Source: Lepus europaeus
Lineage: Eukaryota; Chordata; Mammalia; Lagomorpha; Leporidae
DNA length: 64,000 nucleotides
NCBI RefSeq assembly: GCF_033115175.1
Contig: NC_084837.1
Coordinates: forward strand, 10,368,266-10,432,265
Direction: 5' to 3'
Shown here: piece by piece, positions 1-27,963 of the stretch
Layout of the letters: every line of letters starts with the position of its first letter
Numbering within the stretch: position 1 is the stretch's first letter
Made by a program: the position numbers and the translations under genes
Notes under the pieces: model-generated
Told to the model about the DNA's origin: nothing
The model's database searches: none
Seen by the model: only the letters and a program-made list of their open reading frames with translations

Positions 1-62
1 TACCAATTTAATATGACATTTTAATAAATAATAGAATGAGTTAAAGAACATCCTTCCCATAC

Positions 63-109
63 CTTAGGTACGTCAGCGATCTGAGGGAGGCCAAGGGGTC
101 CAGGTCGCC
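63..109 (-). CDS. SNRPA1: SNRPA1 (left copy) exon 4
   Basis: 47 nt, starting in phase 0 and ending with two bases (AG) of a serine codon. It encodes GDLDPLASLRSLTYL. Donor reads CTAAG/GTATGG and acceptor CCCCACAG. Human U2A' has K where this reads R in the SLRSL stretch. Confidence 0.9.
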
Positions 110-3100
110 CTGTGGGGTGGAGAGCAAAGGTAAGGACAGCACGTGTGCTCCCGGTGTTCTGATGTGGGCAGGGCAGGCACAGCAAGCAGCCGCATCGTCT
201 TTCAGACTGCTACTGCACTAGTCCTGACCCAAACCAGAACATCACAGGCACTGCAGTAACTCCTACAGAACACGCCGAGCACATCTGAGCTTCTTCCTTT
301 AAACCCGGCATCAACAGCTCTGTCTCCACAGCAGAAGAGGCCATGAAAGGTGATCTCCTACAGCAAACTCCAATGACTCAGGAGAGAAAACACCACCAGA
401 GGTGATGCCACCTTGGAGCAAGAGATTCGCCCAGGGCAGAACAGCCATCCGTCCTCCAGCGCCTTCAGACGCCTGGGACCAATGCAGGCCTATCACGGAG
501 GAGGAGCGCCTTTCACCTCAGCAGTGTCCCCTGCCCCCCCACGCTCTTCAAAGAACTTTCCAAGGACACGGAGCTGTACAGCTGGGGAAAAACAGGACCA
601 AATTATGGGGAGAAGGCAGGGCAGCTTTTAGATCTTCCCAAATTGTCTCATAATGCAGTACAGTAAAGACAGCAAAACAAAAAACCCTATGGTCCATACC
701 ACAACCAACCCAGACGACAGACAGTTCTCCAAGAACCCTAACAGAGGAGTGAGGAGGAGCAGGACCACAGTGAGGCTACAAGACCTGCAAGCCAACCACA
801 TCTGTGCAGGAAGCAGCAGAGCAGGTGAGGAGGGAGAGCTGTGAACCTGAGAGCGCCAGCACAACCAGCAGGCACTCAGCTTAACAGCAGCAGCTGCAGA
901 CCCAGCTTCCAGTGAGCACAGGGTCTGGGACCAAGCAGACACTGGGTCCCTGCCAGGACAGCGCGCTCCTGAGGACAAACGGTCAGGAACAGATCTGAGC
1001 CGAGTAAACCGGGTAAGAGAATGAGGAAAAAGGTACAGATACAAGAGGGAAGGGGAACAGGGCAGGAGTTTTCAGAGCGCAGGCTGGCAGTAAGCACATC
1101 ACCAACACCATCAGACAGCTCTCCAGCTTGGACTCGCAACCCACTGAAACAGACCCAGGAAGGAATGACGTTAAGAATGGTAACTTTCGGCTGGCACTGC
1201 GGCTCACTAGGCTAATCCTCCGCCTTGTGGCGCCAGCACCCCGGGGTTCTAGTCCTGGTTGGGGCGCTGGATTCTGTCCCGGTGGCCCCTCTTCCAGGCC
1301 AGCTCTCTGCTGTGGCCAGGGAGTGCAGTGGAGGATGGCCCAAGTGCTTGGGCCCTGCACCCCATGGGAGACCAGGAGAAGCACCTGGCTCCTGCCATCG
1401 GATCAGCACGGTGCACCGGCCGCAGTGTGCCAGCTGCGGCCGCCATTGGAGGGTGAACCAACGGCAAAAAGGAAGACCTTTCTCTCTGTCTCTCACTGTC
1501 CACTCTGCCTGTCAAAAAAATAAAAAATAATAATAAAAAAAAAAGAGTGGTAACTTTCATGTGTGTCTCTCTCTCTAACACATACACACATACCATATAA
1601 AACAGAATGACTAGGGACTGATGGGCTGAAAACACACACAAGTGGGCCAGCGCTGTGGCACAGCGGGTAAAGCCACTGCCTGCAGTGCAGGCATCCCATA
1701 TGGGCGCTGCATTCTCACTGCGGGGTCACATACTCTAGGGAGAATGTCCAGGATGTGATAGGCCCGCCACACACCAGGAAAGGAACACACAGTTCACTCC
1801 ACTCAGGGAGACAGGCAAGGGAGGCAAAGGCACGATAACCCCAAAGCAAGTTAGACAACATGGAATCAGACATCCAGTGTTTAAGTGGAAAATTTAGGTT
1901 ACAACAAGAACATATATGGTATCAGTTCAATTACGTAAAAGTGAAGCACATGGAATACATTTTGAAAACCTAAAACAGGCGGAAATCACCATATCCGTAT
2001 TCTCTCTCTTGGTTTCCCCGTCTTTGAGACCCAGCGTGCAGGCCACGTTCCAGCACACCTCCACTCAGAGAAGCCGCCTGCTTAGTGCCACCACGCTGGG
2101 CACTGCAGTTCTAGAAGACACAGAAGTTCCTCTACAACGCAGGGAGGGTAAGAGAAGCCTCCCTGGACACCAAAAGCACTAGCAATACAGAACAAAGGTC
2201 ATACACTGGCCTACACTTACTTCAGGCACGTCTGTCAGGGCGCCCTGACAGAATCAAAGGGAAGCCAGGGCGGGAAAGACCCCCGCAACACTGACACCCA
2301 GAAAGGCCCAGGTGCTGAGTTAATTAAGAAAGGAAAGGAGGATGAGGTGAAATGTTCTAGACTTCGCAAATGTTCTCTACGAGGCATGCGGCACTTGAAA
2401 CCCCGCCCCGAAATACAACTTACCAGCTCCACAAGGCTGTTGTTGGTGAGAATGAGTTCTGTGAGACAGGGCAGAGCCTGGTCAAGCCCCTCACCTATAC
2501 GGCTAAACAAACAGAACCACTCTCAGTGAAGCGAACAGCTCTATGCACACCCCCGATCACAGGACCTGACTGCAGACGCTCCGAGACCCCGCTTCCCCCG
2601 AACCAGCTACCACTGCGGGAGAGGGGACTGAAGAGGGGACAATTCCGGCAGCTCCCTGGACTCTGCCTGGAACTCACTCTGCTGCCACACCGGCTAGCGG
2701 AGCCTGAGGAAAGGTGAGACCCCTGGGTAGGGCCTCAGCTCACTTCGTTACTTCCGTGGGCAGGTGGCACAGAAACCCAAGTGCTCCTGCACTCACAGTT
2801 CAGGTACAAGACATACAACCACACCACCAGGAAATGGTTAACCAATAGCAGGAAGCTGGATTGGAAGTGGAGCAGGACTTGAATTCAGGCATCCTGATAC
2901 GGGGTGTGTGTGTCCAAGCAGTGCCTTAACCACGGTGCCAAACACCCCACCACTAGTACTTCTTACTGATATTCTCTGCAAGTAGCCAATACATTTTTTC
3001 CAATAAAATTTACACAGAGCTTAAGGGCTAAAACGATCCCAATTTCAGCAAGTCTCCTTCCAGAAACCGGTTTCACTGAAGAAAAGTAAAGCAGAAGGCA

Positions 3101-5919
3101 CGAGGTAGAGATGTGATAAAAACACAATTACTGAGCTTTACAAAGCTTTTTATACACTCCCTTTGATAACTATTTTAGAAGCCAAAACATGAACAAAACA
3201 GTCCACTTTTAATTAGAAACCCTGCATATGTAACTATTTCTGAACATATACAAATATGACGAGGCCAATGTCAAAATAACCACCGGATCTCTGGAAAGCT
3301 GCACCCCATTTCTCATTCAAAGAAGACTGTGGCAGGCGTGAGCCAGGCAGCTGGACACTCCAGCGCCGGGTTAAACGCCCAGCTGTGGTGCTGCCGCCAG
3401 CTCTCTGCTGCTGCAGGCCCTAGGGGCTGGTGACGGTGCACGCACCCACAGCAGCGATCCGGGCAGCTCCCAGCTCCGGCTGGCCAGGCCCCGGTGCGGG
3501 AGGTGCCCGCAGCACTCTGGAATCAAGTAGGTCTAACTGGCCAGACGCTACAGCTTCTCGGGAAGGAGCAGTGGGGAAAAGGTTACACCGTTCCGGCACA
3601 CTCACCATATTCTGTTGTTGTTCACTAACAACGTTTTCAATCTTCTCAGTAGAGGAAAGCCATCCAGCTTCCGGATCTCATTGTCGGAAAAATCAATAGC
3701 ATCAAACTGGTCCAAGGTGGCGCCCAGGTTTTCAATGACAGGAATTTTGTACCCTGCGAACAGACGGGCGGGGGCGGGAGAGGTATGAATAGGATCCAAG
3801 GGCCCTCGGGCCGCCAGCGGTGCACAGCACCCACCCCTGTCAGTGAGGAACACTGCGCGCACCGGAGCGGGCAGCCTCCAGTCCCCAGCGCCGCAAGGCT
3901 CTGGTCCAGCAGCTTACGAGGCCGCCGAACGGTTCACCTTCCGCTGCAGTCAGGCCCAGGCCCGCCATGGTCCCCAAGCTCTCCCACAGCCAGATCCACA
4001 GCTCCCCGGACACGCTCGTGACGTCACCACAGCGCACAGACTCCTGGGGACGCGCTCATGACGTCACCACAGCTCACAGGCTTCCCAGACACACACACAA
4101 CGTCACCACATTCCACAGTCTCCTGGGGACGCGCTCATGACGTCACCACAGTCCACAGGCTCCCGGGACGCTCATGACGTCACCACACTCCACAGGCTCC
4201 CGGGGCGCTCATGACGTCACCACAGCCCTTTATTTCACCTCCCCCAGCCTGAAGGTCACGCCCTGTGAACAATTCACCCAAAAGCCCCCTGCCCTAACCG
4301 GGGCATGACCGCTGCGCTCGGTGCTGAGCGGAGGAAGGGAAGGGCCGCAGCGAGGCTGTTTCCAATGCCGAGCTGCGCAGCACGGCGCCCACCAGGCCCA
4401 AGGGGTGGCTGCTCTCGGACCGAACCTTTCTCTACGAAATAACAGCACCGGACTTGCCCCGAAGGTCAGCGGGGAGTCCAGGCCGCAAGCACAGCCGACG
4501 GGCGCCCGTGGGCAACCTCTGGCCAGCGCCGCGGTCTCGGCCCCCCCCCCCCCCCCCAGGAAGCCGAGCCAGGGACCGACGCCCCCAGAGCCCAGAGCCC
4601 GCCCCGGGAAGCCGAAGCCCCCAGAGCACAGAGCCCAGAGCCCAGCCCCGGCCCCCGCCCCCGCCCCCAGAGCGCCCCACGTGCCCAGGCTCGGCGAGGC
4701 GGCTCCGCCCCAAGGCCCCTTCCCGGAAGGGAACGACCAGGAGAAGCCCCCGGGGCCCGGCCTCTCCTCCTGGCCCCCGCCCCCAGAGCCCGGCCCCATC
4801 CCCGGGAAGCCGACGCCCCCAGAGCCCGGCCCATCCCTGGGAAGCCGAGCCCGGGTCGACGCCCCCAGAGCCCAGAGCCCGCCCCCGCCCCAGAAGCCGA
4901 AGCCCCCAGAACCCGGCCCCATCCCGGGAAGCCGACGCCCCCAGAGCCCGGCCCATCCCTGGGAAGCCGAGCCCGGGTCGACGCCCCCAGAGCCCAGAGC
5001 CCGCCCCCGCCCCAGAAGCCGAAGCCCCCAGAACCCGGCCCCATCCCGGGAAGCCGAAGCCCCCAGAGCCCAGAGCCCGCCCCCCGCCCCGGGAAGCCGA
5101 AGCCCCCAGAACCCGGCCCCATCCCGGGAAGCCGGAGACCCCAGAGCCCGCCCCCCGCCCCGGGAAGCCGAAGCCCCCAGAACCCGGCCCCATCCCGGGA
5201 AGCCGGAGACCCCAGAGCCCAGAGCCCGCCCCCCGCCCCGGGAAGCCGAAGCCCCTAGAGTCCGGCCCCCGCCCCAGAAGCCGAAGCCCCCAGAGCCCAG
5301 AGCCCGCCCCCGCCCCAGAAGCCGAAGCCCCCAGAGCCCGGCCCCATCCCGGGAGGCCGAAGCCCCCAGAGCCCAGAGCCCGCCCCCCGCCCCGGGAAGC
5401 CGAAGCCCCCAGAGCCCGCCCCCACCCCAGAAGCCGAAGCCCCCAGAGCCCGGCCCATCCCCGGGAAGCCAAGCCCGGGCCGACGCCCCCAGAGTCCAGA
5501 GCCCGCCCCCCGCCCCGGGAAGCCGAGTCCGGGGTCGACGCCCCCAGAGCCCGGCCCCCGCCCCCAGAGCCCGGGCCCACCCCGGGAAGCCGACGACCCC
5601 AGAGCCCGGCCCCCGCCCCCAGAGCGCCCCACGCGCCCCGGCTCAGCGAGGCGGCTCCGCCCCAAGGCCCCTTCCCGGAAGGGGACGACCAGGAGAAGGC
5701 CCCGGGGCCCAGCAGCTCCTGGCCGCGCCGGGCCACCTTCCCGCCCGCGAGGCCCGCGGGACGCCCCGAGCCGGGCGACTCGAGGCTCCGCCGGCGGGAC
5801 GGGCCGCGAGGCCGCGGCGCGCGCCGGCCGCACTCACCGCGGAGGTCCAGCTCGCGGTCCCGCACGGCGTTGGTGTACTGCGCCGCCTGCTCGATCAGCT
5901 CCGCCGTCAGCTTCACCAT
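63..5919 (-). CDS. SNRPA1: SNRPA1 left copy, exons 4 to 1 only (partial at window edge)
   Basis: U2 small nuclear ribonucleoprotein A' (U2A'), a leucine-rich-repeat protein that pairs with U2B'' and binds stem-loop IV of U2 snRNA in the spliceosome. Four coding exons lie in the window on the minus strand: 5838-5919 (exon 1, ATG at 5919), 3606-3753, 2424-2502 and 63-109. They have intact GT donors and AG acceptors, and phases join to encode the first 118 residues plus two bases. The nucleotide sequence is the same as the right copy. Exons 5 to 9 are not to the left within the window. If the duplication is tandem they lie within about 10.8 kb left of position 1 and this copy would be complete; otherwise it is a 3'-truncated gene fragment. 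The sequence in view shows no disabling change. Confidence 0.9.
1189..1547 (+). mobile_element. C-SINE, full length, SNRPA1 intron 3 (left copy)
   Basis: Head GGCTGGCACTGCGGCTCAC, body with the GCCCAAGTGCTTGGGCC motif and an A-rich AATAATAAT tail. The 11-bp target site duplication TGGTAACTTTC is at 1178-1188 and 1548-1558. Confidence 0.92.
1643..1715 (+). mobile_element. C-SINE head fragment
   Basis: Only the tRNA-derived 5' part is present (GGGCCAGCGCTGTGGCACAG through CATCCCATATGGGCGC). The body and tail are missing. Confidence 0.85.
2424..2502 (-). CDS. SNRPA1: SNRPA1 (left copy) exon 3
   Basis: 79 nt encoding the LRR stretch beginning RIGEGLDQ and ending NNSLVEL. Donor GAGCTG/GTAAG, acceptor GTTTAG. 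Confidence 0.92.
2838..2945 (-). mobile_element. Degenerate C-SINE fragment
   Basis: Diverged head portion in antisense orientation (AGCAGGAAGCTGGATTGGAA, then GCCTTAACCACGGTGCCAAA). No tail or target site duplication is visible. Confidence 0.7.
3606..3753 (-). CDS. SNRPA1: SNRPA1 (left copy) exon 2
   Basis: 148 nt encoding 48 full codons from YKIPVIENLG to LLVNNNRI, two leucine-rich repeats of U2A'. Acceptor TTCGCAG, donor ATATG/GTGAG. Confidence 0.94.
4010..4225. repeat. Tandem array of CRE palindromes (TGACGTCA), SNRPA1 intron 1, left copy
   Basis: Six units of 37-40 bp. Five carry the perfect 8-bp palindrome TGACGTCA, at 4019, 4059, 4138, 4175 and 4212; the unit at 4098 has CAACGTCA instead. 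Each site is followed by CCACA. TGACGTCA is the consensus cAMP response element for CREB/ATF bZIP dimers. The array is about 1.7-1.9 kb inside the transcript from the exon 1 ATG. Regulatory activity is inferred from the motif only. Confidence 0.85.
4540..5625. repeat. GC-rich VNTR in SNRPA1 intron 1, left copy
   Basis: About 22 imperfect units of roughly 33-50 bp built from GGGAAGCCGAAGCCCCCAGA and GCCCCGCCCC-type blocks, preceded by a 17-C run at 4541-4557. The plus strand is C-rich, so the SNRPA1 transcript is G-rich here. Long stop-free frames occur on both strands as a by-product of composition. Confidence 0.93.
4659..4758. repeat. Direct repeat A flanking the VNTR (partner 5611-5710)
   Basis: About 100 bp, nearly the same as 5611-5710 at an offset of 952. 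Both contain the block GAGGCGGCTCCGCCCCAAGG and the palindromic TTCCCGGAA (4720-4728 and 5672-5680). Confidence 0.88.
5611..5710. repeat. Direct repeat B flanking the VNTR (partner 4659-4758)
   Basis: Second member of the pair. It sits between the VNTR and exon 1 and differs from its partner by a few substitutions. It is likely the original copy of a segment caught up in repeat expansion. Confidence 0.88.
5838..5919 (-). CDS. SNRPA1: SNRPA1 (left copy) exon 1 with start codon
   Basis: 82 nt from ATG (5919) encoding MVKLTAELIEQ to DRELDLR, then one base. Context GCAGCATGG is a good Kozak match (G at +4). Donor CCGCG/GTGAGTG. Confidence 0.95.
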
Positions 5920-6130
5920 GCTGCCGCCGCCTGCCGCCCCGCGCCGCCGCCGCCTGCCGCCGCGCGCCGAGCTCTCGTCCCGGCATGCCCCGCGCCGCCA
6001 CCGCCTGCCGCCGCGCGCCGCGCACTCGTCCCGGCATGCCCCGCGCCGCCGCCAGGCGCACCAATCGCAGATCGACCGCCAGCCCGAAGCAATCGAAGAG
6101 CCACGCCTCCCCGGGAGATGGTTTTGGCCG
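5920..6130 (-). promoter_or_regulatory. SNRPA1 CpG-rich promoter and 5' UTR, left copy
   Basis: Very CpG-dense DNA directly upstream of the exon 1 ATG, without a TATA box. A block containing CCCGGCATGCCCCGCGCCGC occurs twice, at about 5978 and 6029 (period 51), each with the palindromic core GGCATGCC. A CCAAT pentamer on the plus strand at about 6060 reads as ATTGG in the direction of transcription, a possible NF-Y site. The exact start site cannot be placed. Confidence 0.75.
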
Positions 6131-6352
6131 GCGCTCGGTGCTGGCGACGGGGACGGGTCGGGCGCGGGGTTCTTTGCCCGGGGCTTTCTGGAGTCGGGTG
6201 TGTGGGGGAGAGGGGCCCGGGTTCTAGACGTCTGGGTCCGAAAGTTAGGAAAAAACGGGGAAGAGCCCCGCGGACCTCTCACACACTAGGGCATCGCGCA
6301 GTGGGAGCGAGGGTGTGAGTGGCCGCTTGGCGCCGGCGGGGCCGGGGCCCCG

Positions 6353-6560
6353 GGAGTCAAGCCCGGGCCCGGTGGGGTCGCGGTAGGCCCGCGGGGGGCT
6401 CCCGACCCGGGCCCGGTGGGGTCGCGGGGGGCTCCCGACCCGGGTCCGGTGGGGTCGCGGTGGGGTCGCGGGGGGCTCCCGACCCGGGCCCGGTGGGGTC
6501 GCGGTAGGCCCGTGAGGGGGCTCCCGACCCGGGCCCGGTGGGGTCGCGGGGGCTCCCGAG
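6353..6560. repeat. GC minisatellite upstream of the SNRPA1 promoter, left copy
   Basis: Four to five tandem units of about 34-50 bp with the core GGGCCCGGTGGGGTCGCGG and GGGGCTCCCGACCCGG, 440-640 bp upstream of the ATG. Confidence 0.9.
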
Positions 6561-6717
6561 CTTGAGAGACTGGAAGCGTGCACCCCGCAGCCTGCCCCGT
6601 GACGCGGCGTGGCCGCCCTCTCCCCGCAGGCTCGGCCCGCGCCTGCAGCTCTAGATATTTGTAGTTTTTTGGATGATACTAAAAAGGCCATTTACAGAAA
6701 TTCCATGTTTAACCAAC

Positions 6718-6988
6718 TTTTTTTTTTTTATGAAAAAGATTTATTATTTGAGTCACAGAGAGACAGCCGGAGACCTCCCATCCACTGGTTCACTCCCCAG
6801 TGTCAGCAACGGCTGGGGCTGGTCCCATCGGAGCCAGGAGCTCCATCCAGGTCTCCCACGTGGGTGCAGGGGCCCCAGCACTGGACCACCTACTGCTTTC
6901 CCAGGCGCATTAGCAAGGAGCTGGGTCAGAAATGGAGCAGCCGGGACTTCAGACCGCGGCTCTACCTGCTACGCCACAGTGCCAGACC
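6718..6988 (-). mobile_element. C-SINE, antisense
   Basis: Starts with a T-run and AAGATTTATTATTTGAGTCA on the plus strand and ends with CTGCTACGCCACAGTGCCAG, the reverse complement of the SINE head. Confidence 0.88.
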
Positions 6989-7007
6989 CTATCTTTTTGT
7001 TCATTTT

Positions 7008-7308
7008 GTTAAGATTTATTTATTTGAAAGGGAGAGACAGAGAAGGAGAGAATCTTCCATCCACTGATTCACTCCCCAGATGGCCAGAACGGCTGGGGGT
7101 GGCCCAGGCTGAAGCCAGGAGCCAGGAGCTTCTTCCGGGTCTCCCACATGGGTGCAGGGGCCCAAGCTCTTGGCCCGTCCTCTGCTGCTCTCCCAGGTGC
7201 GTTAGCAGGGAGCTGGATCGGAAGTGGAGCAGCTGGGACTCCAACCAGAGCCCATATGGGATGTGGGCACTGCAGGCAGCAGTGAAACCCACGGAACCAC
7301 AGCCAACC
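7008..7308 (-). mobile_element. C-SINE, antisense
   Basis: Begins AAGATTTATTTATTTGAAAG and contains GGGTCTCCCACATGGGTGCA, ending near GAACCACAGCCAACCCC. It lies close to the preceding SINE in the same orientation. Confidence 0.9.
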
Positions 7309-8501
7309 CCTTTTATTTTACTTGTTCTTTCTTTAGCTTTTTTCTTTTTGCTCCCCTGTTCACACTGGCTGGGACCTGCAGCACAGCATAGAGCAATGGT
7401 GATAGTGGACGGACCCTCTTTAGCAGGCAAGGGGAAAAGCCCTAATCAGGTGATCAAGGGTCATATTACCACAGAACAAAACACAATGAGGTAGCCCCTG
7501 CTAGGATGCCGTGAGGAGGACACAGAGCCACTTCCTGTGAGATTCCCGAGTCGAAACACGAGGGAACCTGACAAATCCGAATGGAGGGACTGCCCCCAAC
7601 ACCTGGCCCCTAGCCTTGGACGGCTCAAGGTTGTGGGAGTCCAGGATCAGCGAGGGAAGGACCTTAAAGGTTCAGGGTGACTCAGTGCAAGGTGATTCTA
7701 CCCTGCAGCGTTTGCGGAGAATCACTGGGCCGAGGGTGGATGGCGGTAACACCATCTGATGGTGTCGGGGAGTACCCTTACTTATAGGAAGCGCCCACTG
7801 AGTATTCAGGCTCATGGGGTGTCATGTCAATGATATCGTCTCAAACTGTTCAGGAAAGAGAATGTGTGCTATACTTGCAACCTTTTTATAATCTTGATGT
7901 GATTGTTAAAAAGTTCCAAGTATCCAAACTTCACTTCTAGGAAGAACCACCAGATGGAGCTCCAGGCCCAAAGTTATTTTATTAGCTTTTTCCTTGGTGG
8001 GTTATTTCACGTGTCTCCCTTGGCTGAAATGAAGCCATGGGTGGTTTTGTCCGTTTTGGGTATCTCTTAGGAAGTTGCAAACGGAATTTTTCGTTCTGAT
8101 CCATTTCCCAACCTCAGCAGGACTGGCGTTCCGGGCCGTCCTGTGGGTCACAGGAAGTCTGGCGGCAACCCTGGCCTGTCCGCCCTGGATACAATCCCAT
8201 CCCTCCAGCCGTGCCATGCACACACGGCTCCAGACATTGCCAAGTCTGCCCTGGAAGACAAATCATCCCTGATCGAGAGCTACTGTTCTGGGCAGTAAGA
8301 CACGCCCTGGTCTGGGCACTGTGGTCCTGCTGACCCCACAGGGAGGCGAAGATGAACCGTTCACCCTTAGTGGGAGGGGACTGGACCCCAGGGTGAGTGC
8401 TCCGTTATACACCCTGCGAGTGCTGTTCTCTGTCGGTGACCAGGGCCTGGGGCCTCAGCAGAGGTCTCAGACAACCAAGAACGAAGCCCGGAGATGTGGG
8501 A
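7309..8501. other. Intergenic DNA upstream of SNRPA1, left copy; no gene seen
   Basis: No open frame with recognisable protein, no RNA gene and no clear repeat was found. The same sequence is at 26631-27823. Confidence 0.6.
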
Positions 8502-8590
8502 GGCGGCATCCCATATGGGCGCTGGGTTCTAGTCCCAGTTGCTCCTCTTCCAGTCCAGCTCTCTGTTGTGGCAGTAGCTAACCAATAAAT
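8502..8590 (+). mobile_element. Truncated C-SINE at the duplication junction
   Basis: From 8506 the sequence reads GCATCCCATATGGGCGCTGG and continues as the second part of a C-SINE (GTTGCTCCTCTTCCAGTCC) to about 8568. The normal head (first 50 or so bases) is missing because 8508 is the last base shared with the right copy. The SINE marks the left edge of the repeated unit; the short shared string GGCGGCA lies at the join. Confidence 0.85.
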
Positions 8591-10162
8591 TGCCAAACTC
8601 ACCTTTCCACAGAAGTAAACAAACGAGGTGTGGGTAGCTCGGGAAGACCGCAGAGGGCCATCGAACAATGGCGTTTCTCAAACCTAACAAAGGACCCACC
8701 TCGTCCAACGACACGCTCGTAGGCTCCCCATGTGGCCTCTAAATTATGCCCATTAGGTGTGCGTGTGACACCTGGTGGCTATTTCCAACATTCATAGTTC
8801 ACGGGCCCACAACACTCCCAATATTCTAATCAACGGAACGCAGTTCCACAGAAACCAAGTTCGCCTGGACGTGGCGCGACTGTGTCCTTGTACAAGTTTC
8901 TCCTGCGACTGACATTGCCATCCTGAGCCTCAGGTTCGCAGCGTTCTGGGGCAAGTTGGGTTGTAGTAAAGCCAATTTTTCTGGTTCTGAGTTACACATA
9001 GGGGCTGAGCTCTGGGCACAGCAGTCCTCATTTTTCCCTGGTCCGTCTCGCAAAACCTCCGTCGGGACGATGGCACACACAATGCCACAAGGGGGCCTGC
9101 GGCTTTTTCCTCCCAGGTCAAACTGCTCAGTCCAGATCTATTCAGGAAACAGCACCCGCGCCTCGGCCATTGCTAAGTGACGGGGGGCAGTGAGGCCAGG
9201 GACCCACGGTGCACTACTCCCTAGAGGTTAAGGAGTGTGAGCAGGAAGTCTCAGGACATCCACGCCTAATAGCAGGCAAGTTGTCATCACTGGGCCTGAC
9301 AGCAGCGAGTCCCGCTCGGTAAGACGGCTCACAGGTGACGGATCTGAGACTCGGGCACCCGGCAGAGGGGCCTCCCTGCCATCTGTGAAGGGTGGGGTCA
9401 TTTTCGTTGTCCTGTCAGAAGCGACAGGGAACAAGGAATGCATTCACCAGAGTTACCACGTGCTTTCCAAAGCATTCTGGGATGCTTAGCAGGCTGTCTT
9501 CCTGGCCAGAACCTAGGCTCCCGGAGGCCCAGCGCCTCAGGTCTCGGGCGCCCCAACTGCTCCTTGTAAGAGCGATCAGCTGACTGGCAATCACCAAAAC
9601 CCGTTCAGGGCGCTGTTTACGGCAGTGCTGCCCACTCTTACCGTCACCCAGAGCTTTAAAAAGTCCAAAGAAGTCAGAATCCCTGGCGGAGAGCCCAGGC
9701 ACCGGCATTCCTTCCCAGAGGCCTCAGGTTCAGTCTGGGTTAAAGAACCACTCACTGGTGGACAGTGACAGTGGGGGCAGCGGCTGGCGTGGACACCTGC
9801 GGCTGCAGGAAGCATGCCAGAGAAGCCTCGATCCTCCCCGCCGTGTCCCAGCGCTGGAAAATGCTGCTCCTCCACTCACGCTGCGTCAGCGACAAGCACC
9901 GCTCACCTCACCAGTAGTGTGCAAACCAACAGTCACTCGTGTATGCACCTGTAGGAAGTACAGCAGCGCCCCCAGATCTGGGGGGTGCCTGACACGCTGG
10001 AAAATGCCGCTCCGTCCCAGGGACTTCAGAGTCTGTGGAGGAGGTGGGCACTTGTTGCAGCAGGCAACGTGACACTTGAGACCCGGATGTCTGTCCCTCA
10101 TGGGAGTGCAGTCCCACTTCCCATTCCAGCTTCCCGCTAATGTGTACCCTAGAAGGCAACAG
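8591..10162. other. 3'-flanking DNA of the right SNRPA1 copy; no gene seen
   Basis: Several short open frames, none with a recognisable domain. SELENOS, the expected next gene in the human order, was looked for and not found here. It may lie left of the window. Confidence 0.6.
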
Positions 10163-10312
10163 TGATGGCTCAAGTGCTTGTGACCCTGCCACCCGCTTGG
10201 GAGTCCAGGTTCCAGGAGTTGGACTGTCCCAGGCGTTTGGAAAGGGTGAACCAACAGATGGAAGATCCCTCCGAGTCTGCCTCTCTCTCTGCCTTTAAAA
10301 TAAATTTAAAAT
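10163..10312 (+). mobile_element. C-SINE 3' fragment
   Basis: Contains TGGCTCAAGTGCTTGTGACC and the tail GAACCAACAGATGGAAGATC, then CTGCCTTTAAAATAAATTT. The head is missing. Confidence 0.8.
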
Positions 10313-10708
10313 TTCCTTTTCTCTTAGATAGCACTTTGTGGCTTCTCTCTAGCATCACTCTTGTGTTTTGGGATCTTGAGTGAAATCAAGGCTACTGGAG
10401 CACAAACACTAAGCTATTGCAACAGCTGATCTGATAACCCAGACAGGCACTAAGTAACTAGTAGGCAGGCAGTGCATACAACGTGGGTAAGCTGGACCAA
10501 GGCTGACTCATGGCCCAGGTGCAGGACTGTTGAGATTTAACTTACAGTTTATTTGAGATTTGAATCTTCCGGTTTATTTCTGGATTTGTCCATTTACTAT
10601 TCTTGGACTGCAGTTGGCCACTGAAACTGGCTGCAGTTTGACTGTAGCTGAACCATGCAAAGCAAAACCACAGGTAACAGAGGATTCCCGAGTACAGATA
10701 AAATTCTT

Positions 10709-11027
10709 TTTCTAAATTTTTATTTGAAAGGCAGAGTTGCAGAGAGAGAGGGAGAGACACAGTGAGATCTTCCATCTATTGCTTCACTCCCTAAATGGCC
10801 ACAATGGCCAGGGCTGGGCCAGGCCAAAGTCAGGAGCCAGGAACTCCATCCAGGCCTCCCCTGTGGGTGACAGAGGACCAAGTCCCTGGGCCATCTTCCA
10901 TTTCTTTCCCAGGCACTTAGCAGGAAGCTGGATTGGAAATGGAACAGCCGGGACTTGAACCAGTGCCCACAGGGGACGAGGCCATCCCAGACAGCAGCTG
11001 AACCTGCTGCACCACAACGCCGGCCCC
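10709..11027 (-). mobile_element. C-SINE, antisense, 3' of SNRPA1
   Basis: Starts TTTTTATTTGAAAGGCAGAG and ends with CTGCACCACAACGCCGGCCC, the reverse complement of an intact SINE head. Confidence 0.92.
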
Positions 11028-18500: not shown

Positions 18501-21500
18501 GCCCAAGGTCTTGCGTCATCTTTCACTGCTTTCCCAGGCCACAGCAGAGAGCTGGATCCAAAGTGGAGCAGGCAGGATACGAACTGGCACCCGTATGGGA
18601 TGCCGGCACTGCAGGTGGCGGCTTTACCTGCTATGCCACAGCACTGGGGCCCAGGGTGCTCCATTTCTGATCCAGCTTGCTGCTGATGCATCTGGGAAAG
18701 CAGAAGATAGCCCAAGTGCTTGGGCCCTTGTACATATGTGGCAGACCAGGATGAAGCTCCTGGCTTTCATCTGGCCCAGCCCTGGCTGTTATGGCCATTT
18801 GAGGAGTAAACCAGCAGATGGAAGACCTCTCTCTCTCCCCCTCTCTCCCTCCCTTTCAAATAAACAAATATTTAAAAAGGAAAACAAAAACAAACAAACA
18901 AAAAAAAAAACAACAAAAAATCAAGTACTATGTTATAGTTACATGGTACAAAAAGTCCTGGTATTCTATTACTGCATTAGGGTGGCTGTAGATAACACTA
19001 CTAATGCACTGTCTTTTTCTTAGGTTGAGAGGAGGAATTTTTTGGATGTTTTCACCATAAAGAAATAATAGACATTTGAGGATATCGAAATGTTTGCTGA
19101 TTTGAGCATTATACAATGTATATGTATACAAAAACATCACACAGCACCCCAGAAATATGTACAATTTTTTTGTATCAGTTAAAAATTTTAAAATATTTAA
19201 AATATATCAAATGTAACATTTATCTCTTGATTAGTGTAACTGTCATTCCATTCTAAATTATTCTTTGAATTAATCAAGTGCTATGAAATAAGATTCTTTT
19301 TTTAAAAATACCCCTATGACACTACCAATTTAATATGACATTTTAATAAATAATAGAATGAGTTAAAGAACATCCTTCCCATACCTTAGGTACGTCAGCG
19401 ATCTGAGGGAGGCCAAGGGGTCCAGGTCGCCCTGTGGGGTGGAGAGCAAAGGTAAGGACAGCACGTGTGCTCCCGGTGTTCTGATGTGGGCAGGGCAGGC
19501 ACAGCAAGCAGCCGCATCGTCTTTCAGACTGCTACTGCACTAGTCCTGACCCAAACCAGAACATCACAGGCACTGCAGTAACTCCTACAGAACACGCCGA
19601 GCACATCTGAGCTTCTTCCTTTAAACCCGGCATCAACAGCTCTGTCTCCACAGCAGAAGAGGCCATGAAAGGTGATCTCCTACAGCAAACTCCAATGACT
19701 CAGGAGAGAAAACACCACCAGAGGTGATGCCACCTTGGAGCAAGAGATTCGCCCAGGGCAGAACAGCCATCCGTCCTCCAGCGCCTTCAGACGCCTGGGA
19801 CCAATGCAGGCCTATCACGGAGGAGGAGCGCCTTTCACCTCAGCAGTGTCCCCTGCCCCCCCACGCTCTTCAAAGAACTTTCCAAGGACACGGAGCTGTA
19901 CAGCTGGGGAAAAACAGGACCAAATTATGGGGAGAAGGCAGGGCAGCTTTTAGATCTTCCCAAATTGTCTCATAATGCAGTACAGTAAAGACAGCAAAAC
20001 AAAAAACCCTATGGTCCATACCACAACCAACCCAGACGACAGACAGTTCTCCAAGAACCCTAACAGAGGAGTGAGGAGGAGCAGGACCACAGTGAGGCTA
20101 CAAGACCTGCAAGCCAACCACATCTGTGCAGGAAGCAGCAGAGCAGGTGAGGAGGGAGAGCTGTGAACCTGAGAGCGCCAGCACAACCAGCAGGCACTCA
20201 GCTTAACAGCAGCAGCTGCAGACCCAGCTTCCAGTGAGCACAGGGTCTGGGACCAAGCAGACACTGGGTCCCTGCCAGGACAGCGCGCTCCTGAGGACAA
20301 ACGGTCAGGAACAGATCTGAGCCGAGTAAACCGGGTAAGAGAATGAGGAAAAAGGTACAGATACAAGAGGGAAGGGGAACAGGGCAGGAGTTTTCAGAGC
20401 GCAGGCTGGCAGTAAGCACATCACCAACACCATCAGACAGCTCTCCAGCTTGGACTCGCAACCCACTGAAACAGACCCAGGAAGGAATGACGTTAAGAAT
20501 GGTAACTTTCGGCTGGCACTGCGGCTCACTAGGCTAATCCTCCGCCTTGTGGCGCCAGCACCCCGGGGTTCTAGTCCTGGTTGGGGCGCTGGATTCTGTC
20601 CCGGTGGCCCCTCTTCCAGGCCAGCTCTCTGCTGTGGCCAGGGAGTGCAGTGGAGGATGGCCCAAGTGCTTGGGCCCTGCACCCCATGGGAGACCAGGAG
20701 AAGCACCTGGCTCCTGCCATCGGATCAGCACGGTGCACCGGCCGCAGTGTGCCAGCTGCGGCCGCCATTGGAGGGTGAACCAACGGCAAAAAGGAAGACC
20801 TTTCTCTCTGTCTCTCACTGTCCACTCTGCCTGTCAAAAAAATAAAAAATAATAATAAAAAAAAAAGAGTGGTAACTTTCATGTGTGTCTCTCTCTCTAA
20901 CACATACACACATACCATATAAAACAGAATGACTAGGGACTGATGGGCTGAAAACACACACAAGTGGGCCAGCGCTGTGGCACAGCGGGTAAAGCCACTG
21001 CCTGCAGTGCAGGCATCCCATATGGGCGCTGCATTCTCACTGCGGGGTCACATACTCTAGGGAGAATGTCCAGGATGTGATAGGCCCGCCACACACCAGG
21101 AAAGGAACACACAGTTCACTCCACTCAGGGAGACAGGCAAGGGAGGCAAAGGCACGATAACCCCAAAGCAAGTTAGACAACATGGAATCAGACATCCAGT
21201 GTTTAAGTGGAAAATTTAGGTTACAACAAGAACATATATGGTATCAGTTCAATTACGTAAAAGTGAAGCACATGGAATACATTTTGAAAACCTAAAACAG
21301 GCGGAAATCACCATATCCGTATTCTCTCTCTTGGTTTCCCCGTCTTTGAGACCCAGCGTGCAGGCCACGTTCCAGCACACCTCCACTCAGAGAAGCCGCC
21401 TGCTTAGTGCCACCACGCTGGGCACTGCAGTTCTAGAAGACACAGAAGTTCCTCTACAACGCAGGGAGGGTAAGAGAAGCCTCCCTGGACACCAAAAGCA

Positions 21501-24500
21501 CTAGCAATACAGAACAAAGGTCATACACTGGCCTACACTTACTTCAGGCACGTCTGTCAGGGCGCCCTGACAGAATCAAAGGGAAGCCAGGGCGGGAAAG
21601 ACCCCCGCAACACTGACACCCAGAAAGGCCCAGGTGCTGAGTTAATTAAGAAAGGAAAGGAGGATGAGGTGAAATGTTCTAGACTTCGCAAATGTTCTCT
21701 ACGAGGCATGCGGCACTTGAAACCCCGCCCCGAAATACAACTTACCAGCTCCACAAGGCTGTTGTTGGTGAGAATGAGTTCTGTGAGACAGGGCAGAGCC
21801 TGGTCAAGCCCCTCACCTATACGGCTAAACAAACAGAACCACTCTCAGTGAAGCGAACAGCTCTATGCACACCCCCGATCACAGGACCTGACTGCAGACG
21901 CTCCGAGACCCCGCTTCCCCCGAACCAGCTACCACTGCGGGAGAGGGGACTGAAGAGGGGACAATTCCGGCAGCTCCCTGGACTCTGCCTGGAACTCACT
22001 CTGCTGCCACACCGGCTAGCGGAGCCTGAGGAAAGGTGAGACCCCTGGGTAGGGCCTCAGCTCACTTCGTTACTTCCGTGGGCAGGTGGCACAGAAACCC
22101 AAGTGCTCCTGCACTCACAGTTCAGGTACAAGACATACAACCACACCACCAGGAAATGGTTAACCAATAGCAGGAAGCTGGATTGGAAGTGGAGCAGGAC
22201 TTGAATTCAGGCATCCTGATACGGGGTGTGTGTGTCCAAGCAGTGCCTTAACCACGGTGCCAAACACCCCACCACTAGTACTTCTTACTGATATTCTCTG
22301 CAAGTAGCCAATACATTTTTTCCAATAAAATTTACACAGAGCTTAAGGGCTAAAACGATCCCAATTTCAGCAAGTCTCCTTCCAGAAACCGGTTTCACTG
22401 AAGAAAAGTAAAGCAGAAGGCACGAGGTAGAGATGTGATAAAAACACAATTACTGAGCTTTACAAAGCTTTTTATACACTCCCTTTGATAACTATTTTAG
22501 AAGCCAAAACATGAACAAAACAGTCCACTTTTAATTAGAAACCCTGCATATGTAACTATTTCTGAACATATACAAATATGACGAGGCCAATGTCAAAATA
22601 ACCACCGGATCTCTGGAAAGCTGCACCCCATTTCTCATTCAAAGAAGACTGTGGCAGGCGTGAGCCAGGCAGCTGGACACTCCAGCGCCGGGTTAAACGC
22701 CCAGCTGTGGTGCTGCCGCCAGCTCTCTGCTGCTGCAGGCCCTAGGGGCTGGTGACGGTGCACGCACCCACAGCAGCGATCCGGGCAGCTCCCAGCTCCG
22801 GCTGGCCAGGCCCCGGTGCGGGAGGTGCCCGCAGCACTCTGGAATCAAGTAGGTCTAACTGGCCAGACGCTACAGCTTCTCGGGAAGGAGCAGTGGGGAA
22901 AAGGTTACACCGTTCCGGCACACTCACCATATTCTGTTGTTGTTCACTAACAACGTTTTCAATCTTCTCAGTAGAGGAAAGCCATCCAGCTTCCGGATCT
23001 CATTGTCGGAAAAATCAATAGCATCAAACTGGTCCAAGGTGGCGCCCAGGTTTTCAATGACAGGAATTTTGTACCCTGCGAACAGACGGGCGGGGGCGGG
23101 AGAGGTATGAATAGGATCCAAGGGCCCTCGGGCCGCCAGCGGTGCACAGCACCCACCCCTGTCAGTGAGGAACACTGCGCGCACCGGAGCGGGCAGCCTC
23201 CAGTCCCCAGCGCCGCAAGGCTCTGGTCCAGCAGCTTACGAGGCCGCCGAACGGTTCACCTTCCGCTGCAGTCAGGCCCAGGCCCGCCATGGTCCCCAAG
23301 CTCTCCCACAGCCAGATCCACAGCTCCCCGGACACGCTCGTGACGTCACCACAGCGCACAGACTCCTGGGGACGCGCTCATGACGTCACCACAGCTCACA
23401 GGCTTCCCAGACACACACACAACGTCACCACATTCCACAGTCTCCTGGGGACGCGCTCATGACGTCACCACAGTCCACAGGCTCCCGGGACGCTCATGAC
23501 GTCACCACACTCCACAGGCTCCCGGGGCGCTCATGACGTCACCACAGCCCTTTATTTCACCTCCCCCAGCCTGAAGGTCACGCCCTGTGAACAATTCACC
23601 CAAAAGCCCCCTGCCCTAACCGGGGCATGACCGCTGCGCTCGGTGCTGAGCGGAGGAAGGGAAGGGCCGCAGCGAGGCTGTTTCCAATGCCGAGCTGCGC
23701 AGCACGGCGCCCACCAGGCCCAAGGGGTGGCTGCTCTCGGACCGAACCTTTCTCTACGAAATAACAGCACCGGACTTGCCCCGAAGGTCAGCGGGGAGTC
23801 CAGGCCGCAAGCACAGCCGACGGGCGCCCGTGGGCAACCTCTGGCCAGCGCCGCGGTCTCGGCCCCCCCCCCCCCCCCCAGGAAGCCGAGCCAGGGACCG
23901 ACGCCCCCAGAGCCCAGAGCCCGCCCCGGGAAGCCGAAGCCCCCAGAGCACAGAGCCCAGAGCCCAGCCCCGGCCCCCGCCCCCGCCCCCAGAGCGCCCC
24001 ACGTGCCCAGGCTCGGCGAGGCGGCTCCGCCCCAAGGCCCCTTCCCGGAAGGGAACGACCAGGAGAAGCCCCCGGGGCCCGGCCTCTCCTCCTGGCCCCC
24101 GCCCCCAGAGCCCGGCCCCATCCCCGGGAAGCCGACGCCCCCAGAGCCCGGCCCATCCCTGGGAAGCCGAGCCCGGGTCGACGCCCCCAGAGCCCAGAGC
24201 CCGCCCCCGCCCCAGAAGCCGAAGCCCCCAGAACCCGGCCCCATCCCGGGAAGCCGACGCCCCCAGAGCCCGGCCCATCCCTGGGAAGCCGAGCCCGGGT
24301 CGACGCCCCCAGAGCCCAGAGCCCGCCCCCGCCCCAGAAGCCGAAGCCCCCAGAACCCGGCCCCATCCCGGGAAGCCGAAGCCCCCAGAGCCCAGAGCCC
24401 GCCCCCCGCCCCGGGAAGCCGAAGCCCCCAGAACCCGGCCCCATCCCGGGAAGCCGGAGACCCCAGAGCCCGCCCCCCGCCCCGGGAAGCCGAAGCCCCC

Positions 24501-25241
24501 AGAACCCGGCCCCATCCCGGGAAGCCGGAGACCCCAGAGCCCAGAGCCCGCCCCCCGCCCCGGGAAGCCGAAGCCCCTAGAGTCCGGCCCCCGCCCCAGA
24601 AGCCGAAGCCCCCAGAGCCCAGAGCCCGCCCCCGCCCCAGAAGCCGAAGCCCCCAGAGCCCGGCCCCATCCCGGGAGGCCGAAGCCCCCAGAGCCCAGAG
24701 CCCGCCCCCCGCCCCGGGAAGCCGAAGCCCCCAGAGCCCGCCCCCACCCCAGAAGCCGAAGCCCCCAGAGCCCGGCCCATCCCCGGGAAGCCAAGCCCGG
24801 GCCGACGCCCCCAGAGTCCAGAGCCCGCCCCCCGCCCCGGGAAGCCGAGTCCGGGGTCGACGCCCCCAGAGCCCGGCCCCCGCCCCCAGAGCCCGGGCCC
24901 ACCCCGGGAAGCCGACGACCCCAGAGCCCGGCCCCCGCCCCCAGAGCGCCCCACGCGCCCCGGCTCAGCGAGGCGGCTCCGCCCCAAGGCCCCTTCCCGG
25001 AAGGGGACGACCAGGAGAAGGCCCCGGGGCCCAGCAGCTCCTGGCCGCGCCGGGCCACCTTCCCGCCCGCGAGGCCCGCGGGACGCCCCGAGCCGGGCGA
25101 CTCGAGGCTCCGCCGGCGGGACGGGCCGCGAGGCCGCGGCGCGCGCCGGCCGCACTCACCGCGGAGGTCCAGCTCGCGGTCCCGCACGGCGTTGGTGTAC
25201 TGCGCCGCCTGCTCGATCAGCTCCGCCGTCAGCTTCACCAT
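11388..25241 (-). CDS. SNRPA1: SNRPA1, U2 snRNP protein A' (complete, nine exons)
   Basis: U2A' is a nuclear leucine-rich-repeat protein that forms a heterodimer with U2B'' on U2 snRNA stem-loop IV and acts in branch-site recognition by the spliceosome. Exons in transcript order are 25160-25241, 22928-23075, 21746-21824, 19385-19431, 17586-17688, 16964-17043, 16494-16569, 15861-15954 and 11388-11446. They total 768 nt, giving 255 residues plus stop, the same length as human U2A'. Exons 1 to 5 encode the N-terminal LRR domain; exons 6 to 8 encode the basic and lysine-rich stretch; exon 9 ends in the acidic tail EEEMEEDTVTNGS. All junctions have GT/AG and matching phase. Exons 1 to 4 lie inside the right duplicate and are matched at 63-5919. 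The left copy, if complete, would make a second U2A' of the same sequence in that part. Intron 8 (4.4 kb) is filled mainly with C-SINEs. Confidence 0.96.
12462..12515. repeat. (TA)n/(TG)n microsatellite
   Basis: Alternating TA, a short TG run, then TA again, directly next to the T-run of the following antisense C-SINE. Confidence 0.9.
12472..12839 (-). mobile_element. C-SINE, antisense, with target site duplication
   Basis: Flanked by the 16-bp direct repeat ACAATCTAATATATAT at 12456-12471 and 12840-12855. The microsatellite lies between the left repeat and the poly-T tail, so it probably grew from the SINE tail. Confidence 0.92.
13104..13407 (-). mobile_element. C-SINE, antisense, older copy
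   Basis: Starts AAGGTTTATTTACTTGTTTG and ends CCCACTGCACCACATGCTGG. Diverged relative to neighbouring SINEs. Confidence 0.88.
14208..14873 (+). mobile_element. C-SINE split by a second C-SINE
   Basis: The outer element reads GGCCAACACTGTGGCGCAGC at 14208 and ends with CTTTCAAATAAAATAAGTAA and an A-run at 14873. Its body is interrupted at 14472-14800. Confidence 0.93.
14472..14800 (-). mobile_element. C-SINE nested in the one above
   Basis: Antisense, starting with a T-run and ending GCCACGGCACCGGCC. The 15-bp target site duplication GGAAGACCTCTTTCT is at 14457-14471 and 14801-14815. It is made from the tail of the host SINE, which shows the order of insertion. Confidence 0.95.
15386..15710 (+). 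mobile_element. C-SINE, sense on plus strand
   Basis: Head GAGGCTGGCGTTGTGTCACA, tail TTTCAAATAAATCAATC and A-run. Near-perfect target site duplication AATCCCCATTGT / AATCCCCACTGT. Confidence 0.92.
15861..15954 (-). CDS. SNRPA1: SNRPA1 exon 8
   Basis: 94 nt encoding NAIANASTLAEVERLKG to GRERRS and one base of glycine. Acceptor CTCCAG, donor ATCAG/GTGAG. Confidence 0.96.
16494..16569 (-). CDS. SNRPA1: SNRPA1 exon 7
   Basis: 76 nt encoding FNPGAGLPTDKKKGG to GDVEAIK. Acceptor TTTCCCAAG, donor ATCAAG/GTGAG. Confidence 0.96.
16964..17043 (-). CDS. SNRPA1: SNRPA1 exon 6
   Basis: 80 nt encoding the basic, helical stretch ERQEAEKMFKGKRGAQLAK and DIARRSK. Acceptor GCTGTAG, donor AAAAC/GTAAG. Confidence 0.96.
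17586..17688 (-). CDS. SNRPA1: SNRPA1 exon 5
   Basis: 103 nt encoding ILRNPVTNKKHYRLYVIYK through VKLK, the last LRR and capping region. Acceptor TTCTCCAG, donor CTAAAA/GTAAGTG. It completes the serine begun by exon 4. Confidence 0.96.
18181..18897 (+). mobile_element. C-SINE split by an antisense C-SINE
   Basis: Head-derived sequence at 18181-18253 (GGCATCCCGTATGGGCACCG) resumes at 18652 (CTCCATTTCTGATCCAGC) and ends in an A-rich tail. The inner element lies between. Confidence 0.82.
18254..18651 (-). mobile_element. Nested antisense C-SINE with expanded 9-bp repeat
   Basis: Starts TTAAAGATTTATTTATTTAT. Its purine tract has grown into about seven copies of GGCGGAGAG-like units at 18308-18365 before the usual SINE body resumes. 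Confidence 0.88.
19385..19431 (-). CDS. SNRPA1: SNRPA1 exon 4
   Basis: 47 nt encoding GDLDPLASLRSLTYL and two bases of serine. Same sequence as 63-109. Confidence 0.93.
20511..20869 (+). mobile_element. C-SINE, SNRPA1 intron 3 (right copy)
   Basis: Counterpart of 1189-1547 with the same target site duplication, so the insertion predates the duplication. Confidence 0.92.
20965..21037 (+). mobile_element. C-SINE head fragment (right copy)
   Basis: Counterpart of 1643-1715. Confidence 0.85.
21746..21824 (-). CDS. SNRPA1: SNRPA1 exon 3
   Basis: 79 nt, RIGEGLDQ to NNSLVEL, after completing a cysteine begun in exon 2. Same sequence as 2424-2502. Confidence 0.95.
22160..22267 (-). mobile_element. 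Degenerate C-SINE fragment (right copy)
   Basis: Counterpart of 2838-2945. Confidence 0.7.
22928..23075 (-). CDS. SNRPA1: SNRPA1 exon 2
   Basis: 148 nt, YKIPVIENLG to LLVNNNRI. Same sequence as 3606-3753. Confidence 0.96.
23332..23547. repeat. CRE palindrome array, intron 1, right copy
   Basis: TGACGTCA at 23341, 23381, 23460, 23497 and 23534, with the degenerate unit at 23420. Same as 4010-4225. Confidence 0.85.
23862..24947. repeat. GC-rich VNTR, intron 1, right copy
   Basis: Counterpart of 4540-5625, including the flanking 100-bp direct repeats at 23981-24080 and 24933-25032. The equal unit number in both copies is notable for such a repeat. Confidence 0.93.
25160..25241 (-). CDS. SNRPA1: SNRPA1 exon 1 with start codon
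   Basis: 82 nt from ATG at 25241, MVKLTAELIEQ to DRELDLR. Donor CCGCG/GTGAGTG. Same sequence as 5838-5919. Confidence 0.97.
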
Positions 25242-25452
25242 GCTGCCGCCGCCTGCCGCCCCGCGCCGCCGCCGCCTGCCGCCGCGCGCCGAGCTCTCGT
25301 CCCGGCATGCCCCGCGCCGCCACCGCCTGCCGCCGCGCGCCGCGCACTCGTCCCGGCATGCCCCGCGCCGCCGCCAGGCGCACCAATCGCAGATCGACCG
25401 CCAGCCCGAAGCAATCGAAGAGCCACGCCTCCCCGGGAGATGGTTTTGGCCG
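25242..25452 (-). promoter_or_regulatory. SNRPA1 CpG-rich promoter and 5' UTR, right copy
   Basis: Counterpart of 5920-6130, with the twofold CCCGGCATGCC block and an inverted CCAAT element. It would drive the SNRPA1 copy that is complete in the window. Confidence 0.75.
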
Positions 25453-25674
25453 GCGCTCGGTGCTGGCGACGGGGACGGGTCGGGCGCGGGGTTCTTTGCC
25501 CGGGGCTTTCTGGAGTCGGGTGTGTGGGGGAGAGGGGCCCGGGTTCTAGACGTCTGGGTCCGAAAGTTAGGAAAAAACGGGGAAGAGCCCCGCGGACCTC
25601 TCACACACTAGGGCATCGCGCAGTGGGAGCGAGGGTGTGAGTGGCCGCTTGGCGCCGGCGGGGCCGGGGCCCCG

Positions 25675-25882
25675 GGAGTCAAGCCCGGGCCCGGTGGGGT
25701 CGCGGTAGGCCCGCGGGGGGCTCCCGACCCGGGCCCGGTGGGGTCGCGGGGGGCTCCCGACCCGGGTCCGGTGGGGTCGCGGTGGGGTCGCGGGGGGCTC
25801 CCGACCCGGGCCCGGTGGGGTCGCGGTAGGCCCGTGAGGGGGCTCCCGACCCGGGCCCGGTGGGGTCGCGGGGGCTCCCGAG
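25675..25882. repeat. GC minisatellite upstream of SNRPA1, right copy
   Basis: Counterpart of 6353-6560. Confidence 0.9.
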
Positions 25883-26039
25883 CTTGAGAGACTGGAAGCG
25901 TGCACCCCGCAGCCTGCCCCGTGACGCGGCGTGGCCGCCCTCTCCCCGCAGGCTCGGCCCGCGCCTGCAGCTCTAGATATTTGTAGTTTTTTGGATGATA
26001 CTAAAAAGGCCATTTACAGAAATTCCATGTTTAACCAAC

Positions 26040-26310
26040 TTTTTTTTTTTTATGAAAAAGATTTATTATTTGAGTCACAGAGAGACAGCCGGAGACCTCC
26101 CATCCACTGGTTCACTCCCCAGTGTCAGCAACGGCTGGGGCTGGTCCCATCGGAGCCAGGAGCTCCATCCAGGTCTCCCACGTGGGTGCAGGGGCCCCAG
26201 CACTGGACCACCTACTGCTTTCCCAGGCGCATTAGCAAGGAGCTGGGTCAGAAATGGAGCAGCCGGGACTTCAGACCGCGGCTCTACCTGCTACGCCACA
26301 GTGCCAGACC
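26040..26310 (-). mobile_element. C-SINE, antisense (right copy)
   Basis: Counterpart of 6718-6988. Confidence 0.88.
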
Positions 26311-26329
26311 CTATCTTTTTGTTCATTTT

Positions 26330-26630
26330 GTTAAGATTTATTTATTTGAAAGGGAGAGACAGAGAAGGAGAGAATCTTCCATCCACTGATTCACTCCCCA
26401 GATGGCCAGAACGGCTGGGGGTGGCCCAGGCTGAAGCCAGGAGCCAGGAGCTTCTTCCGGGTCTCCCACATGGGTGCAGGGGCCCAAGCTCTTGGCCCGT
26501 CCTCTGCTGCTCTCCCAGGTGCGTTAGCAGGGAGCTGGATCGGAAGTGGAGCAGCTGGGACTCCAACCAGAGCCCATATGGGATGTGGGCACTGCAGGCA
26601 GCAGTGAAACCCACGGAACCACAGCCAACC
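26330..26630 (-). mobile_element. C-SINE, antisense (right copy)
   Basis: Counterpart of 7008-7308. Confidence 0.9.
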
Positions 26631-27963
26631 CCTTTTATTTTACTTGTTCTTTCTTTAGCTTTTTTCTTTTTGCTCCCCTGTTCACACTGGCTGGGACCTG
26701 CAGCACAGCATAGAGCAATGGTGATAGTGGACGGACCCTCTTTAGCAGGCAAGGGGAAAAGCCCTAATCAGGTGATCAAGGGTCATATTACCACAGAACA
26801 AAACACAATGAGGTAGCCCCTGCTAGGATGCCGTGAGGAGGACACAGAGCCACTTCCTGTGAGATTCCCGAGTCGAAACACGAGGGAACCTGACAAATCC
26901 GAATGGAGGGACTGCCCCCAACACCTGGCCCCTAGCCTTGGACGGCTCAAGGTTGTGGGAGTCCAGGATCAGCGAGGGAAGGACCTTAAAGGTTCAGGGT
27001 GACTCAGTGCAAGGTGATTCTACCCTGCAGCGTTTGCGGAGAATCACTGGGCCGAGGGTGGATGGCGGTAACACCATCTGATGGTGTCGGGGAGTACCCT
27101 TACTTATAGGAAGCGCCCACTGAGTATTCAGGCTCATGGGGTGTCATGTCAATGATATCGTCTCAAACTGTTCAGGAAAGAGAATGTGTGCTATACTTGC
27201 AACCTTTTTATAATCTTGATGTGATTGTTAAAAAGTTCCAAGTATCCAAACTTCACTTCTAGGAAGAACCACCAGATGGAGCTCCAGGCCCAAAGTTATT
27301 TTATTAGCTTTTTCCTTGGTGGGTTATTTCACGTGTCTCCCTTGGCTGAAATGAAGCCATGGGTGGTTTTGTCCGTTTTGGGTATCTCTTAGGAAGTTGC
27401 AAACGGAATTTTTCGTTCTGATCCATTTCCCAACCTCAGCAGGACTGGCGTTCCGGGCCGTCCTGTGGGTCACAGGAAGTCTGGCGGCAACCCTGGCCTG
27501 TCCGCCCTGGATACAATCCCATCCCTCCAGCCGTGCCATGCACACACGGCTCCAGACATTGCCAAGTCTGCCCTGGAAGACAAATCATCCCTGATCGAGA
27601 GCTACTGTTCTGGGCAGTAAGACACGCCCTGGTCTGGGCACTGTGGTCCTGCTGACCCCACAGGGAGGCGAAGATGAACCGTTCACCCTTAGTGGGAGGG
27701 GACTGGACCCCAGGGTGAGTGCTCCGTTATACACCCTGCGAGTGCTGTTCTCTGTCGGTGACCAGGGCCTGGGGCCTCAGCAGAGGTCTCAGACAACCAA
27801 GAACGAAGCCCGGAGATGTGGGAGGCGGCAGCAGTGAAGCCTGGGCACGATGCAGGCGGCTGCTCTCCCGCAGCGACCAGTGCTAGCCGCCTCCCGCTGG
27901 CTGGGCAGAACCGTTTGGTTTTCCTCCACAGCCCTGCTTGTACTTGTGAACTCGTCCTTCCTA

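Follow-up and report, generated by a model that had tools for sequence, protein, structure and literature searches.

Probable recent tandem duplication of the spliceosome gene SNRPA1 in a Lepus europaeus assembly, with a SINE fragment at the seam

Background

Where human rearrangements combine microhomology with templated insertion, the available portion of PMC5120786 takes this as a sign of replicative template switching. Among clustered CNVs, 33 of 36 duplicated fragments were interspersed and 3 of 36 were tandem according to the text available from PMC6258378, and the replicative literature at hand therefore concerns mostly more complex events. One MMEJ junction in the same available text contained a 26-bp templated insertion with microhomologies of 3 and 4 bp (PMC6258378). 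False assembly duplications are described in the accessible sections of PMC9516828 as being marked by low depth, gaps between the copies (a primary characteristic) and discordant reads, with single-copy k-mers as a mark of the haplotype kind.

The locus described here contains two copies of SNRPA1, the gene for U2A', placed side by side in one contig. SNRPA1 is single-copy in human. The duplication is ordinary in kind, yet unusual for a core spliceosome gene. No SNRPA1 duplication was found in titles and abstract openings on SNRPA1 duplication, copy number or paralogs, and SNRPA1 occurs 0 times in the main text, as available, of a paper on rabbit segmental duplications (PMC5389087).

Methods

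The window is the whole stretch of 64,000 nt that was analysed. Coordinates are window coordinates, where coordinate c equals position 10368265+c of contig C13 (117.5 Mb) and base 0 is the base immediately left of the window. The region compared spanned 124 kb and consisted of the window, 50 kb to its left and 10 kb to its right. The assembly that was searched comprised 2.93 Gb in 649 contigs. A 200-base query across the seam was run against the whole assembly and 40 of 646 candidates were scored; this search was not exhaustive, as its list lacked a short left-border match that base-by-base comparison had shown. Overlaps at the switch points were compared with random sites using a 54-base query in the 124 kb, with the seam itself and the copies inside the left unit dropped. 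Genes were located with human sequences of SNRPA1, SELENOS and PCSK6 as probes, the PCSK6 probe being incomplete.

Results

Direct comparison in the window gave 0 mismatches in 8,508 bases and no indel between 1-8508 and 19323-27830, bearing out the fixed-offset match with constant spacing that an earlier note had claimed, and an exact match of this length cannot be chance. When the left flank was compared at the same offset of 19,322, the repeat extended left of the window start as far as -10759. The two units, -10759..8508 and 8563..27830, measure 19,268 bp apiece and are arranged head-to-tail in direct orientation, and the period of 19,322 is made up of the unit (19,268) and an insert (54). 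The unit had been given in the earlier note as 8509-27830, a start that is off by 54 bp; the real start is 8563, and 8509-8562 occurs in neither copy. The features of the duplication are as follows.

1..8508, minus strand: left unit, part inside the window, carrying exons 4 to 1 of SNRPA1 copy L and the 2.6 kb that precede its ATG; the whole unit runs from -10759
8509..8562, plus strand: seam insert, 54 bp, an internal fragment of a dispersed SINE between the left unit end (8508) and the right unit start (8563)
8563..27830, minus strand: right unit, 19,268 bp, 0 mismatches at 19,079 compared bases against -10759..8508
27831..27890, no strand: right outer border, unduplicated, adjoining the unit and lacking the 54-bp insert

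Identity between the units was complete at all 19,079 comparable bases. A further 189 bases of the left copy are N, in two short runs that are each as long as the right-copy counterpart, and these runs were taken not to be gaps, given that they leave the spacing intact. The 124 kb contain no other N runs, both of these lie inside the left copy, and the window itself is free of N. The GC-rich tandem arrays in SNRPA1 intron 1 (about 4.8-5.6 kb and 24.1-24.9 kb) also showed no difference between the copies. The assembly shows two units at this place, but identical units can collapse and the number of units may be greater than two.

Perfect identity is easily obtained if the same reads, or the two haplotypes of a near-homozygous animal, were used twice, as would happen in a false assembly duplication where overlapping contigs or haplotypes of one locus are juxtaposed and a 19-kb overlap is left in. 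Zero differences over 19 kb including the GC-rich arrays also fits a copied consensus, and the identity of the intron 1 VNTR arrays is in keeping with such an artefact. Cases on one scaffold made up 7 to 24% of the false duplications in three older vertebrate assemblies in the portion of PMC9516828 available. Haplotype (heterotype) duplication, the commonest kind, should nevertheless leave differences between the copies, against the 0 in 19,079 observed here.

No gap is present at the seam. The SINE from which the insert derives is one that we take to be tRNA-derived and of the lagomorph C-repeat/CSINE type. A 61-base pattern from 8505-8565 was located at 2,368 sites of the assembly with at most 2 mismatches (1,149 forward and 1,219 reverse), while the same pattern reversed, used as a control, was found at 0 sites. 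Fifty-three of the sites, the seam among them, were exact. Of the other 52, 29 were retrieved with their surroundings, and these have their flanks in common, with the upstream side shortened in one. As the shared flanks of the exact copies continue on both sides, the insert represents an internal piece of the SINE without the tail. The nearest exact copy on the same contig among the matches listed was at C13:13668150, approximately 3.3 Mb off, and nearer inexact copies are possible. With 52 equal exact candidates, the idea that one template could be named for the insert was rejected. Retrotransposition of a SINE into the seam was also rejected, as there is no A-rich run and no direct repeat at the sides, and the SINE copies extend beyond the insert both ways.

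Base-by-base comparison over roughly 80-120 bases did not find the 54-bp insert at the left or the right outer border. This comparison bears on NAHR, in which SINE copies at the two borders would have generated the duplication by crossing over unequally. SINE sequence is present at the seam and the region is SINE-rich, as such an exchange would lead one to expect, but NAHR requires the same repeat at both breakpoints and neither border has the 54 bp. On the side of the right border, the closest SINE seen begins some 135 bp away (judged by eye) and matches the insert at 77%. NAHR between repeats was rejected when the borders were compared directly and a same-orientation repeat at both breakpoints was not found, and we consider this route extremely improbable.

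The insert is foreign to both unit ends and has microhomology on each side, a structure that a contig overlap does not make. A mis-join through the SINE would need a read that passes from the unit end into a SINE, but the unit half of the cross-seam query had 100% matches at two places only, the seam and the end of the right unit (whole assembly, 40 of 646 candidates scored). The microhomology-flanked 54-bp SINE piece together with the absence of a gap argues for a real DNA junction, and a false assembly duplication is regarded as unlikely.

The overlaps at the two switch points are as follows.

8504..8508, plus strand: left microhomology between the unit end and the SINE, CGGCA (5 bp) in 18 of 29 exact copies and GGCA (4 bp) in 11 of 29
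8563..8572, plus strand: right microhomology between the SINE and the unit start, CTG, one mismatch, then TGTGGC (9 of 10 bases) in 26 of 29 exact copies

Both switch points showed short microhomology that was above the level of random sites in the test with the 54-base query. The left overlap averaged 4.4 of 7 bases in 15 scorable SINE copies compared with 1.88 at random sites, and the right overlap averaged 7.2 of 10 in 27 SINE copies compared with 2.48, the copies being mutually related so that the 15 and the 27 are not independent tests. Two observations weigh against template switching at these points. The left overlap in the exact copies is 4-5 bp as opposed to 7 bp in some inexact ones, and the right overlap is interrupted by a mismatch after an unbroken CTG (3 bp) in all 29 exact copies examined, with one further mismatch in 3 of the 29. 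A right overlap of 10 of 10 was present in one local SINE copy (at 14737) and in one distant copy, both inexact over the insert. Among six inexact copies the left overlap was 7 of 7 in some and the right overlap 10 of 10 in one, values that are biased since the query included the flanks.

Inverted repeats are located near both borders. One, with 14-bp arms in -10853 to -10813, lies about 50 bp outside the left border; the other, with 10-bp arms in 27820-27895, is beside the right border and has an arm ending at 27829. The background for the border inverted repeats was 0.02 and 0.016 in tests set up after they had been seen. Chosen border windows folded into hairpins with z scores of -3.33 and -4.21, these windows having been picked after sight, and windows centred on the borders are not unusual for the region, 23% and 33% of 300 random windows scoring equally low. 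The border inverted repeats are perhaps hairpins at which a fork stalled, but they are left out of the argument for template switching.

The order of genes on the minus strand is PCSK6, SNRPA1 copy R, SNRPA1 copy L and SELENOS. The gene features are as follows.

11388..25241, minus strand: SNRPA1 (U2A') copy R, complete, with nine coding exons, GT-AG introns and 255 aa
25241-25160, 23075-22928, 21824-21746, 19431-19385 and 17688-17586, minus strand: SNRPA1 copy R exons 1 to 5
17043-16964, 16569-16494, 15954-15861 and 11446-11388, minus strand: SNRPA1 copy R exons 6 to 9
63-109, 2424-2502, 3606-3753 and 5838-5919, minus strand: SNRPA1 copy L exons 4 to 1
31346..56874, minus strand: PCSK6 coding exons, unduplicated, found with the incomplete human probe

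The protein of copy R is identical to human U2A' (chain 5xjc_o) at 252 of 255 residues. Poly-A signals lie within the unit, with AATAAA at 11203 for copy R, and 2.6 kb upstream of the ATG is retained in each SNRPA1 copy. Eight of the nine exons of copy L could be compared and all 8 were identical to those of copy R. Exons 5 to 9, which the earlier note had proposed to look for left of the window, are there in so far as four of the five were legible and match the right copy at every base, the fifth being N; the head-to-tail duplication with a whole second SNRPA1 that the same note claimed is what the assembly shows, with this one left-copy exon as N. The last coding exon of PCSK6 ends 3,516 bp from the right unit border and the SELENOS start codon is 2,960 bp from the left unit border, so none of the exons found, as far as they were probed, is cut. 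Judged from its exons, each unit would carry an apparently complete SNRPA1 gene of nine exons between SELENOS and PCSK6.

Several tandem arrays and one null result were recorded at the locus. A GC-rich minisatellite in SNRPA1 intron 1 occupies 24100-24950, with a copy at 4778-5625, and has interleaved units of about 35, 78 and 122 bp. A 50-bp minisatellite with 16 copies that are 95% alike lies at 38315-39107 amid the PCSK6 exons. To the left of the window, at -37016 to -35897, lies a long minisatellite that repeats about every 45 bp, approximately 15 kb past the last SELENOS coding match. An Rfam search of the window gave no match.

With 0 of 19,079 bases differing, the divergence between the copies has a 95% upper bound of 1.6e-4. 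The neutral rate is near 2e-9 per site and year, and GC-rich tandem arrays of the intron 1 type change fast. An age no greater than some tens of thousands of years would follow, barring gene conversion that erased differences. The duplication is probably young and a copy-number variant. A variant that is segregating or private to this animal appears likelier than a fixed one because the units differ at 0 of 19,079 bases, the fast-changing arrays included. Fixation or high frequency in this lagomorph is unlikely; a core spliceosome gene would then be naturally at double dose, and its two identical promoters and coding sequences would be kept because additional U2A' is tolerated or favoured.

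Discussion

The locus is probably a recent tandem duplication that is real in the sequenced DNA and was made by template switching (MMBIR/FoSTeS) or by related end joining. One replication-repair event would be its most likely origin. In such an event the copied strand would have arrived at 27830 and quit its template at the CGGCA microhomology, approximately 54 bp would then have been copied out of the middle of a SINE copy, and a second, imperfect microhomology of 10 bp (8563-8572) would have returned the strand to the start of the segment, which was copied anew. The route may have been MMBIR/FoSTeS, or the joining of a re-replicated end by polymerase theta/MMEJ. Polymerase theta is linked to MMEJ with templated insertion, a route for which an insert of 54 bp from a dispersed repeat is long. 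MMEJ and MMBIR would be inseparable from the sequence alone. We infer that the junction is in the germline DNA of the animal and that both genes are transcribed, and the order of copying and the enzyme are inferred in the same way.

Formally, a chimeric molecule or a wrong path taken by the assembler could also have been the origin. The duplication might also be real in the sequenced DNA yet somatic, cell-line-borne or a template-switch chimera from library amplification rather than germline. Perfect identity suits an event that is few cell divisions old, and amplification and cultured cells also yield template-switch junctions. Assemblers follow the majority path, however, so that a minority molecule would not be expected to end up in a contig of chromosome scale such as C13, which makes a somatic or library origin very improbable.

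For a germline duplication, each chromosome would be expected to supply U2A' mRNA at double dose, in equal parts from the two genes. U2A' functions bound to U2B'' in U2 snRNP, and since it acts in this bound form the double dose is probably buffered. If the duplication is real, it gives a mammal two neighbouring copies of a gene for a U2 snRNP protein, with the originating scar still readable to the base, and it would provide a clean natural case of spliceosome dosage as well as a case of a SINE used as a stop-over template. If it is fixed or common, the SELENOS-PCSK6 interval would be a natural test of dosage buffering for a U2 snRNP subunit. If it is false, it would serve as a warning that this assembly inflates gene copy number at a core gene.

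The locus resembles the false assembly duplications described in the available sections of PMC9516828 in that the copies are on the same contig, are identical and include a whole gene. It is unlike them in that the copies are joined without a gap and show no haplotype differences, and in that the seam holds a piece of SINE foreign to both unit ends (PMC9516828, same sections). Human rearrangements attributed to MMBIR/FoSTeS share with it the gain of a copy, a short templated insert, microhomology and the lack of long homology at the borders, as far as the text available from PMC5120786 and PMC6258378 describes them. The events in the available text of those studies are mostly larger and more complex (PMC5120786, PMC6258378), whereas the locus here amounts to a single, uncomplicated 19-kb tandem gain in a different mammal. 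The complexity of the published events is a point against the template-switching reading. Its template is a dispersed SINE whose source locus cannot be named, unlike in the human MMBIR/FoSTeS cases. MMEJ with templated insertion is similar in placing short template copies between ends that share few bases. The MMEJ case in the accessible part of PMC6258378 is, however, a deletion with non-templated stretches, whereas the seam between the two SNRPA1 units is a duplication junction that has none.
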